Below, piece after piece: positions 1 through 39,879 of a stretch of DNA of 43,152 nt. The position numbers and the translations under genes were made by a program. A model generated the notes under the pieces. The model worked only from the letters and a program-made list of their open reading frames with translations. It made no database searches and was not told where the DNA came from. Origin of the DNA: Thermohalobacteraceae bacterium (GTDB lineage: Bacteria; Bacillota; Clostridia; Tissierellales; VENL01); contig DAOUQG010000002.1 of the NCBI GenBank assembly GCA_030625765.1, positions 1 to 43,152 on the forward strand, read 5' to 3'. The first letter of the stretch is position 1. Every line of letters starts with the position of its first letter.

Positions 1-125
1 AAACGCCCATCATTATTAGGCGTTCCTACATCACAGAATACTATCTGAGTTCCTTTTATTTTATTTGATTCAATGTATCTATCATAGATATGATTAATGC
101 ATAGGTTTACATTAGACTCTGGGTC
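1..125 (-). pseudogene. Truncated fragment of a large SNF2-type helicase/methylase-like protein of mobile elements (continues beyond the left edge)
   Basis: Minus-strand translation reads ...DDPESNVNLCINHIYDRYIESNKIKGTQIVFCDVGTPNNDGRF, resembling the 'TQ(L/I)VFCDxxTP' segment of ICE/phage SNF2-type helicases. Similarity stops near 125, where GGGGACG repeats begin. Confidence 0.5.
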
Positions 126-133
126 ATCTTCTA

Positions 134-260
134 TTGTGTCATGGGGACGTTGTGTCACGGGGACGTGTCATTCGTCAGATTCTAATTGTCTTTTCAATAA
201 TTGCACGTCCTTATTATCTAACTATTCTTATGTCGAACGAAACGTCCCCTTGTCATACTA
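134..260. repeat. REP-like GGGGACG repeat cluster (two direct copies plus one inverted copy)
   Basis: GTGTCATGGGGACGTTGTGTCACGGGGACGTGTCA... followed by inverted AACGTCCCCTTGTCAT at about 240-258. Confidence 0.5.
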
Positions 261-412: not shown

Positions 413-444
413 CAAAAAAAGAAGCCTCACATATTGAGACTTCT
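413..444 (-). terminator. Rho-independent terminator after the peptide/TPR operon
   Basis: Minus strand: GAAGTCTCAATATGTGAGGCTTCTTTTTTT. Confidence 0.75.
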
Positions 445-461
445 ACAACTATAACTAGGCT

Positions 462-614
462 TTATTTAACTATTACTTCTGATGTAGGAAATGGAACAAC
501 AGAATTGCCACCAGCTCCACCACCATTTTCATCATCATTTACTGCAAACACAATACTTGTTGATAAAAGAAATACCAATCCTATACATACTAGCTTCTTG
601 AACACTTTTTTCAT
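462..614 (-). CDS. Small secreted pre-peptide (50 aa), candidate Phr-like signalling peptide
   Basis: MKKVFKKLVCIGLVFLLSTSIVFAVNDDENGGGAGGNSVVPFPTSEVIVK*. Has a signal peptide; its GGAGG RBS lies in the 3' end of the upstream TPR gene; ATG is 2 nt after the TPR stop. Confidence 0.8.
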   Translation of the reverse strand: MKKVFKKLVCIGLVFLLSTSIVFAVNDDENGGGAGGNSVVPFPTSEVIVK

Positions 615-616
615 TA

Positions 617-1717
617 TCAAATTCCTCCCTTTTCTTTTTTATGTTTATAAAGGAGATAACTCAATCCTCCTAAACATGCACATAATTGAATACTAAAGGA
701 ATCGCTGTCATCAGCTATATCATTAATCAAACTTGTTATTATTTTTTTTAGTTCTATAATACATTCTTGATTATTAGTTTTTCTTAGCTTGTCAATTATA
801 AGCTTAATTGGATCCAAAACATGTATCTTATTAAATTGATGCTTATAAGATAATTTTAGCAGTTCTAACAATCTACTGATTACTTTATCCATTTCTTTAT
901 CTCCAGCACCTATTCTTACATATGTGTCATAGTAAATAAGGTATTTCTTATAATTATTTTTATCAAATAACTCAAAGCATTTATTTATGTACTCAAAAGC
1001 TTTATCCATTTGATTCATATTGTAGTACAATATACTAGCATTGTTATAGGCTGAAGCTAAGTTGTTATTATCATCTCCATAATATTTCATAGCTTTATTG
1101 AATATTTTGATACTTTTTTTATATTGCTTCATCAGTCTATAGCACCGACACAAATTATTATATGCATGTCCTTTTTTTGTATTGTCATTTTCTGAAAACT
1201 CCAATGCTTTATTAAACAAATCTATAGCATCTTGATAACGTCCTATTTTAATGCATAATATTCCATATTCATAATAATACCTATATAAAAATCTTTTAGG
1301 TATTTCATCACTTATCTTTTGACTACATTTTTCAAAGACTAATAATGATTCACCATAATTAAGTAATTCGTAGTAAATAACAGCAACATCAATCATGTAA
1401 TTAACCAATACATCGTTTCTATCATGTCTAAAAATGTTCTTTTTTAAAGTATCTACTGCAGCTTTAATTTCATTCAAAGCTCTTTTTGCATTACACTCTT
1501 TATAATATGAAATACCAATTTCACGAGTCATATGTGCTGCTTCAAACATCAATTTATGTTTAATAAATAATTCTTTAGCTCTCAGTAAAAATTCTCTATC
1601 TTTGTGATAATTATGTTCAGCTACCCCATCTATTATAAACTGACATAACTGCTTCAATTGTTTATGTGATTTTATATCTGATAAGTCATCTGTTGTAATT
1701 TTAATAATATCCCCCAT
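617..1717 (-). CDS. TPR-repeat protein, Rap/RRNPP-like regulator candidate
   Basis: 366 aa with multiple TPR repeats (YYEYGILCIKIGRYQDAIDLFNKALEF, AYNNLCRCYRLMKQYKKSIKIFNKAMKYY, AYNNASILYYNMNQMDKAFEYINKCFELF). Size and downstream peptide resemble rap-phr cassettes. Confidence 0.75.
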   Translation of the reverse strand: MGDIIKITTDDLSDIKSHKQLKQLCQFIIDGVAEHNYHKDREFLLRAKELFIKHKLMFEAAHMTREIGISYYKECNAKRALNEIKAAVDTLKKNIFRHDRNDVLVNYMIDVAVIYYELLNYGESLLVFEKCSQKISDEIPKRFLYRYYYEYGILCIKIGRYQDAIDLFNKALEFSENDNTKKGHAYNNLCRCYRLMKQYKKSIKIFNKAMKYYGDDNNNLASAYNNASILYYNMNQMDKAFEYINKCFELFDKNNYKKYLIYYDTYVRIGAGDKEMDKVISRLLELLKLSYKHQFNKIHVLDPIKLIIDKLRKTNNQECIIELKKIITSLINDIADDSDSFSIQLCACLGGLSYLLYKHKKEKGGI

Positions 1718-1982: not shown

Positions 1983-2018
1983 AAAAAACGTGGACTTAGC
2001 CCACGTTTTTTATTTAAA
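1983..2018 (-). terminator. Rho-independent terminator
   Basis: AAAAAACGTGGacttagCCCACGTTTTTT. Confidence 0.8.
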
Positions 2019-38071: not shown

Positions 38072-38818
38072 TCACCCTTCCTTATTCAATCCTCTATACC
38101 TTGCTGTCCTTAGTTCATCTATGTATGCAGTAAGCTCAGGCATGTTCGAGTCTTTTGCTTGCTCGATTGCCAGCTCTACATCATAGGGAACTCTAACAAA
38201 ATTTATAGAATAACTACTAAATTCTCTACTGTTATAATTACCCTCAATAATAGCATACGACGCTTGAGGAATATCTAAAGGATTTCCTACGCTTCCAGCA
38301 TTAAATAATGTTTTTCTTTTAAAATTTTGAATATATGCATTATGAACGTCACCATATCCAACTACATCTGGTCGAACGTCTCTTTTGCCTTTTGTGGTTA
38401 ATTCAGTATTATTAAACATAGATAATCTTTCTTCAAAAGAAGACCAGTCTTGTACTCGATGATAAATACCTTTTGCAGAAGCATGAAACAATCTTACTAA
38501 TCTCCCACTTATATAAAAATCATGTGAATAGGGTAAATCTCTTAAATAATTAATTCTTTCAGAATCTAGTTGATTTTGATACCACTTAATATTTTCGTTT
38601 TCAATGCATTTTGTCATCATATAATCCCAGTTTCCTTGTACTACAACTTCACAAGACTGTCTTATAACATCTATAGCTTCTTTTGAGCATGGACCTTTTC
38701 CAACTAAATCCCCTAAACAAAATATCCTTGAAATCCCTCGTTTTCTTATATCATTTAAAACAGAACTAAGTGCTGGAATATTTCCATGAATATCTGATAT
38801 TATTGCTATATTCTCCAA
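38072..38818 (-). CDS. Metallophosphoesterase (TTG start MENIAIISDIHGN preferred)
   Basis: IISDIHGNIPALSSVL, CLGDLVGKGP, QGNWD, GYGDVHNAY, NAGSVGNPLD; AAGGAGGT RBS 7 nt before TTG. Confidence 0.9.
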   Translation of the reverse strand: MENIAIISDIHGNIPALSSVLNDIRKRGISRIFCLGDLVGKGPCSKEAIDVIRQSCEVVVQGNWDYMMTKCIENENIKWYQNQLDSERINYLRDLPYSHDFYISGRLVRLFHASAKGIYHRVQDWSSFEERLSMFNNTELTTKGKRDVRPDVVGYGDVHNAYIQNFKRKTLFNAGSVGNPLDIPQASYAIIEGNYNSREFSSYSINFVRVPYDVELAIEQAKDSNMPELTAYIDELRTARYRGLNKEG

Positions 38819-38843
38819 AACACCAACCTCCTTAACCATTATC

Positions 38844-38938
38844 AGATTAACCAACATGCCTTTCTCGCTCAATACACAAAAAGCAATGAAATTTCAACAT
38901 ATTTGAATTTTCATAAAAAACTATTTTCTTTCAGATAA
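38844..38938. repeat. Dispersed structured repeat, copy D (lacks central hairpin)
   Basis: AGATTAACCAACATGCCTTTCTCGCTCAATACACAAAAAGC matches copy C left flank (AGATTAACCAACATGCCTTGCTCACTCAAGGCACAAAAAGC); TTTCTTTCAGAT matches right flank. Confidence 0.75.
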
Positions 38939-38988
38939 AAATTATCATAGTCGAAAATATCTTTGTATGTTAAGTAAGTTTCCAAATT

Positions 38989-39879
38989 CTATTCAAATAA
39001 GCTTAGCTGAACTGATTTATCTTCATAAAACATTTTGATACGAGTATCAATATTGTTTTCTTTACATTTTTGTTTGAATATTTCTTTTAGTAGCTTAACA
39101 TTATTAGCTGCACATCCATAATTATTCCCATACTTAGCTTGATATTTTTGTCTAAACCCCGGAAATAACTCATCTAATTTATTGTAATAATACACCCTCT
39201 GTCTATCTCTTAAAGTCATACCAAATGAAGCAATAATGTATTTTGCACCACTACTAGCTCCTTTCTCAACTATATCAATAATATTTTCTTCGTTATCTTC
39301 AATAAAAGGAAGAATAGGCATCATTGTAATACCTGTATATATCCCCGCATCGGATAATATCTTCATAGCTTTCAGACGTTCCGATGGAAGTGATGCACCA
39401 GGTTCAATTTTTTTCGCTAATTCATCATCAGTTGTTGTGATTGTAAAAGAAACTGCTGCGTAAACCCTGCTAATATCCTTCAAAATATCAACATCTCTTG
39501 TAACCAAACTACTTTTAGTAACAATATGAACTGGGAAATTGGAATCCCTAATAACCTTTAATGCTCCTCTTATCAATTTGGTTTTCTTTTCTAAGGGAGT
39601 ATACGGGTCATTCATTCCACCTGTCCCTATTGTTCCCTTAACCCGTTTACTCATAATTTCTTTTCGTAATAATTCTATTGCATTTTCCTTTACTTCAACG
39701 TTATTAAAATTAGCAATCTGATAACATTCACTTCTTGAATCACAATAGATACACCGATGCTGACATCCTCTATAAATATTCATACCATATTTTATTCCAA
39801 ACCATGGATCAGGGTTTTTGGAATAAGATAGTAATTTCTTAGCTTTTATTTTAATTATCTTGCTATTCATTATAAACAA
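38989..39879 (-). CDS. SPL-family radical SAM protein
   Basis: NIYRGCQHRCIYCDSRS; GTIGTGGMNDPYTPLEKKTKLIRGALKVI; VTKSSLVTRDVDIL. Confidence 0.9.
   Translation of the reverse strand: MFIMNSKIIKIKAKKLLSYSKNPDPWFGIKYGMNIYRGCQHRCIYCDSRSECYQIANFNNVEVKENAIELLRKEIMSKRVKGTIGTGGMNDPYTPLEKKTKLIRGALKVIRDSNFPVHIVTKSSLVTRDVDILKDISRVYAAVSFTITTTDDELAKKIEPGASLPSERLKAMKILSDAGIYTGITMMPILPFIEDNEENIIDIVEKGASSGAKYIIASFGMTLRDRQRVYYYNKLDELFPGFRQKYQAKYGNNYGCAANNVKLLKEIFKQKCKENNIDTRIKMFYEDKSVQLSLFE

Follow-up and report, generated by a model that had tools for sequence, protein, structure and literature searches.

On the reverse strand of a Thermohalobacteraceae contig, a gene for a TPR protein lies directly ahead of a small gene for a putative secreted peptide, which raises the question of whether the two encode a receptor and its pheromone precursor and, if so, whether they belong to the Rap-Phr systems. 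The window analysed (43,152 nt) corresponds to the entire contig C83 of a MAG (86% complete, 2.68 Mb in 259 contigs). Judged from sequence and predicted structure, the locus is probably a self-contained RRNPP-type peptide-signalling cassette on a branch separate from Rap.

Arrangement of the two genes

The TGA of the TPR gene is separated by 2 nt (TA) from the ATG of the peptide gene, and the last TPR codons, seen in GGGAGGAATTTGATAATG, contain the Shine-Dalgarno sequence of the latter (Table 1). Re-examination of the sequence confirmed the originally predicted interval (462-1717), the 2-nt gap and the placing of the Shine-Dalgarno sequence inside the 3′ end of the TPR gene, and the single terminator proposed for both genes was found just outside that interval. 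Two terminator-like hairpins with a T run were present in the stretch versus 0.3 expected. The upstream terminator separates the cassette from the DUF2680 gene, which would place the transcription start of the pair in 1718-1982. Repeated GGGGACG-type stretches, possibly debris of a mobile element, could be observed at window positions 121-260, near the contig end.

Table 1. Coordinates of the cassette and its flanking elements in the window
Feature	Position	Strand	Remarks
TPR gene	617..1717	(-)	366 aa, ATG start, HTH-less; predicted TPR superhelix (17 helices)
Peptide gene	462..614	(-)	50 aa; from the ATG at 614 to the last base of the stop codon at 462; propeptide MKKVFKKLVCIGLVFLLSTSIVFA/VNDDENGGGAGGNSVVPFPTSEVIVK, the slash marking the presumed cleavage site
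Codons of C-terminal SEVIVK	465..482	(-)	Conserved segment; likely pheromone or part of it, with presumed ends
Shine-Dalgarno sequence GGGAGG of peptide gene	624..629	(-)	Inside 3′ end of TPR gene
Intrinsic terminator closing the pair	420..444	(-)	Hairpin and T run
Terminator of upstream DUF2680 gene	1983..2011	(-)	Hairpin search
Codons of Y186-N187-N188-L189	1151..1162	(-)	N188 is the counterpart of the RRNPP asparagine (RapF N227)

The TPR protein matched TPR_12 (3e-20) and other TPR models in a Pfam search, which recognised TPR repeats only and no HTH, and its sequence contained neither an N-terminal hydrophobic segment nor a signal peptide. The AF2 model (pLDDT 86) was all-helical and formed a continuous superhelix, in line with the TPR fold proposed at the outset; peptide binding in its groove is a prediction. 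The 50-aa peptide showed a Sec-type signal peptide ending in VFA, called, like all signal peptides reported here, with a home-made and loose rule.

Conservation of the gene pair and of the peptide C-terminus

The TPR gene is present in a single copy in its own genome. Among 60 genomes searched as relatives, true relatives were found only in the MAG Tissierellales bacterium PL25a_bin.35 (G001), which belongs to another genus of the same family and carries seven TPR paralogues that are 39-45% identical to the window protein over the full length. Every one of the seven is followed, 2-3 nt downstream, by an ORF of 43-49 aa with a nearly identical signal peptide, starting MKKL.KSLACI.LVF.LS.SIVSA or a close variant, and the seven pairs are dispersed in unrelated gene contexts. 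With the same rule, a secreted ORF was detected after the TPR gene in 8/8 family members versus 2/44 of the other non-nested window ORFs of at least 100 aa (Fisher p 6e-8, with members that are paralogues and hence not independent). Nucleotide identity among the six closest paralogues was 82% for the TPR gene, 89% for the signal peptide and 67% for the tail, and 54% just past the peptide stop, where shuffled sequences gave 52%; omega was 0.18 for the TPR gene, 0.42 for the signal peptide and 0.52 for the tail. The omega values below 1 and the end of similarity at the peptide stop indicate that the frame of the small ORF is constrained. By these comparisons the TPR and peptide genes are conserved and duplicated as a pair, and the expectation that a TPR gene with a short secreted ORF would recur in relatives was borne out in G001.

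Two genomes have yielded members of the close family. A single-sequence scan of genome contigs yielded no relative and a profile search recovered all seven. No further full-length member was found in 249 genomes of the order, none in a third genome from the taxonomic family of these two, and nothing except the own genome among 399 evenly drawn genomes of the phylum; viral contigs, phages and plasmids contained no relative of the window cassette. Weak peptide matches in G002:C64, G001:C13 and G000:C200 proved to lie next to serC-type genes or on the strand opposite them, and were rejected as peptides. An eighth place in G001 (L035, G001:C75:75355-75477) carries a decayed C-terminal TPR fragment without a peptide ORF. 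The cassette most closely related to that of the window has radical-SAM and phosphoesterase-like genes next to it (L018:6879-8536). These resemble genes at the opposite end of the window (38072-39879), which suggests rearranged synteny. Downstream of two cassettes, regulators of 255 aa and 427 aa with HTH-like starts were observed (L019:5882-6649 and L022:7858-9141), which are possible partners or neighbours by chance. Conserved AAATTTTCCTTATAAT- and TTAATTGTAGTATGAT-like blocks 5′ of the TPR genes in L011 and L013-L017 suggest a shared promoter or regulator site that is not evident in the window copy.

The peptide tails are 19-26 aa long, acidic and glycine-rich at the start, variable in the middle and alike at the C-terminus. 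The window end SEVIVK resembles five tail ends of G001 (EEIVIK twice, EEIIIK, EDILVK and EKIVAK), and this resemblance exceeded that to shuffled tails with p values of 5e-5 to 4e-4 over 5-8 residues. The common C-terminal pattern across the genera was E-[VI]-[VI]-[VI]-K, with the ends of L016 (EEILI) and L002 (EDILENTVE) deviating from it. Because the tails share this motif (p about 1e-4 by shuffling), the pheromone is probably C-terminal and comprises about SEVIVK, its exact ends being approximate; the initial guess of a C-terminal pheromone is thereby supported.

Relationship to HTH-bearing clostridial proteins and to Rap

Outside the own family, profile matches to full-length homologues were obtained in one other Clostridia family, f39 (best E 1e-43). 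Most of these homologues are 413-430 aa long and have an additional N-terminal segment. In the AF2 model of one of them, L048 (pLDDT 93), the TPR superhelix is preceded by five short helices at the N-terminus, all within residues 14-72, and this segment, unnamed by Pfam, would by the model be an Xre-type-like HTH. A secreted small ORF was present near the receptor stop at 21/27 evaluable loci, making the f39 HTH+TPR proteins candidate receptors by layout. The tails showed a D..[DN]P pattern near the start in 18/21 cases; similarity of the window tail to these DP-type tails was weak (best p 0.02 before correction). One f39 genome, G440, contains about 26 receptor genes of the wider family (L047, L052, L057-L076), most of them with a secreted peptide.

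The HTH segment is missing from four f39 members. A tree calculated on TPR columns required three changes of HTH state: one for the window clade, one for L050/L051 and one for L053/L054, two genes with less certain TTG start codons. The latter two groups are nested among HTH forms and are therefore read as losses. In the Rap-rooted tree the window clade was sister to all f39 proteins, so that its own change may have gone in either direction. The window N-terminus LSDIKSHKQL weakly matched the residues that precede the HTH, LSDIKIKKPGKQL in the case of L052 (E 0.13). A candidate HTH remnant just 5′ of the TPR start, hinted at by a profile match that extended further and contained two stops, did not outscore shuffled DNA (p 0.14) and was rejected.

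In an hhalign comparison with Raps, N188 aligned with the RRNPP asparagine. Its RapF counterpart N227 is conserved across RRNPP receptors and holds the peptide backbone, and in gel assays PhrF no longer bound once this residue was changed to alanine (PMC3601957). Among the aligned sequences, the window protein and L002 had asparagine at this position, as did every one of the 25 distant homologues and 8/8 Raps, while D or E was found in six of the seven close relatives in G001; N225 did not vary among the 33 clostridial proteins in the alignment. The hhalign matches to eight plasmid-borne Raps reached 97.4% (A1; 176 columns, TPR core only) and 98.7% (A2). Among PDB fold matches of the HTH-bearing f39 model, RapF appeared at rank 6 and a phage Rap was also present; the top 50 matches of the window model comprised generic TPRs only and no Rap, and a fold search of viral models with the window protein likewise returned generic TPRs. 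Fold matches carry little weight, TPR proteins being mutually alike. Since the pair is conserved and full-length HTH+TPR homologues mostly occur with secreted peptides, the locus was read as an RRNPP-type pair and the TPR protein as a likely RRNPP receptor, by anatomy as well as by homology. The groove asparagine of the window protein fits the receptor/pre-peptide cassette originally proposed, and its replacement by D or E in six of the close relatives counts against it.

AT-rich DNA is rich in short ORFs, and two other window ORFs passed the loose rule, so the small ORF might be a chance open frame behind an ordinary TPR gene; this reading is refuted by conservation in all eight members, the synonymous excess and the loss of similarity right past the stop, and is scarcely credible. 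The one-operon pairing would also fit a secreted antimicrobial or structural mini-peptide with the TPR protein as its chaperone, immunity or anchoring partner, and the glycine-rich tail does exceed pheromone length. However, what is conserved of the tail is a short stretch at its C-terminus, homologues with an N-terminal HTH indicate regulators rather than chaperones, and, judged from gene order and sequence starts, the seven contexts share no evident transporter or maturation gene linked to the pair, which makes a partner of this kind unlikely.

A true Rap-Phr system, with a Rap phosphatase or response-regulator anti-activator and its Phr, was suggested by size, by the HTH-less TPR protein preceding a secreted pre-peptide and by several dispersed paralogues per genome, as in Bacillus; RapF was also found by phmmer (1.4e-5), and the window protein has an asparagine at the equal groove position. 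However, RapH_N, the three-helix effector domain of Rap, had no Pfam match in the TPR protein at E<=1 and was found neither in the own nor in the relative genome, with a positive B. subtilis control. The window protein also has about 30 fewer residues ahead of the aligned core than RapLS20, and the tree, in which the Raps served as outgroup and NprR, QssR and AimR were not included, placed eight Raps on one side of a 100/100 branch and the window clade with the f39 proteins on the other. While window-family tails end in the above pattern, Phr peptides carry a conserved Arg (PMC3601957). Lacking RapH_N and falling outside the sampled Raps in the tree, the window receptor is by domain content and phylogeny not a Rap, and is Rap-like by architecture only; Rap-Phr membership, as first envisaged, was abandoned as very improbable.

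Proposed mechanism and significance

For the RRNPP-type cassette, a mode of action can be proposed by analogy. The peptide would be exported by Sec and cut by signal peptidase after VFA, and an extracellular protease would release a C-terminal fragment, about SEVIVK, which an Opp-type permease would take back in as density rises. The fragment might then bind to the concave TPR groove (N188, N225, N226) and alter receptor shape. As the receptor is without an HTH, its output would have to be protein-protein contact, as with Rap; first guesses for its target are a response regulator or inputs to Spo0A, which this genome encodes. Five Opp-type binding proteins were found in the own genome and seven in G001, and a Spo0A domain was present in both.

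The QssR/Qsr-type RRNPP systems likewise occur in Clostridia and combine a TPR receptor with an adjoining small peptide (PMC7206700, PMC7376267), whereas the window protein is without an HTH; this comparison was made by description only. RRNPP_detector yielded 21 new candidate subfamilies (PMC10075063). The D-x-x-DP-rich peptides of the f39 HTH-TPR homologues recall the DPG motif of AimR-AimP/AloR-AloP, described for peptides of AimR and of subfamily 08 (PMC12700828), but the window peptide is without DP and its cassette had no phage, plasmid or viral-contig match. A structural phylogeny inferred that the HTH was lost not only in Rap but also in another RRNPP receptor, that of Anoxybacter fermentans subfamily 17, which has nine TPRs and is similar by description (PMC12700828). 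A probable HTH loss outside Rap has thus been described before, and the window family, as a further variant, is possibly not the first such case seen. The open-access literature contained no report attributable to the window family. To our knowledge, HTH-less RRNPP receptors have been characterised experimentally only in Rap.

More speculatively, the family may be an RRNPP lineage of Clostridia in which HTH loss occurred separately from that in Rap and whose receptors act on a protein target not described so far. The near-common C-terminal signal of the seven pairs suggests cross-talk, and the seven-pair relative might, under the same tentative proposal, harbour a cross-talking network rather than insulated channels; the near-identical C-termini of its paralogue peptides raise the question of whether there is one common signal or several. 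Such a case would also bear on which output surface HTH-less receptors use when the Rap effector domain is missing. If true, an independent clostridial case would mean that the conversion of a transcription factor into a protein-binding switch recurs, and the cassette would be a candidate Rap-like input for anaerobes with Spo0A.
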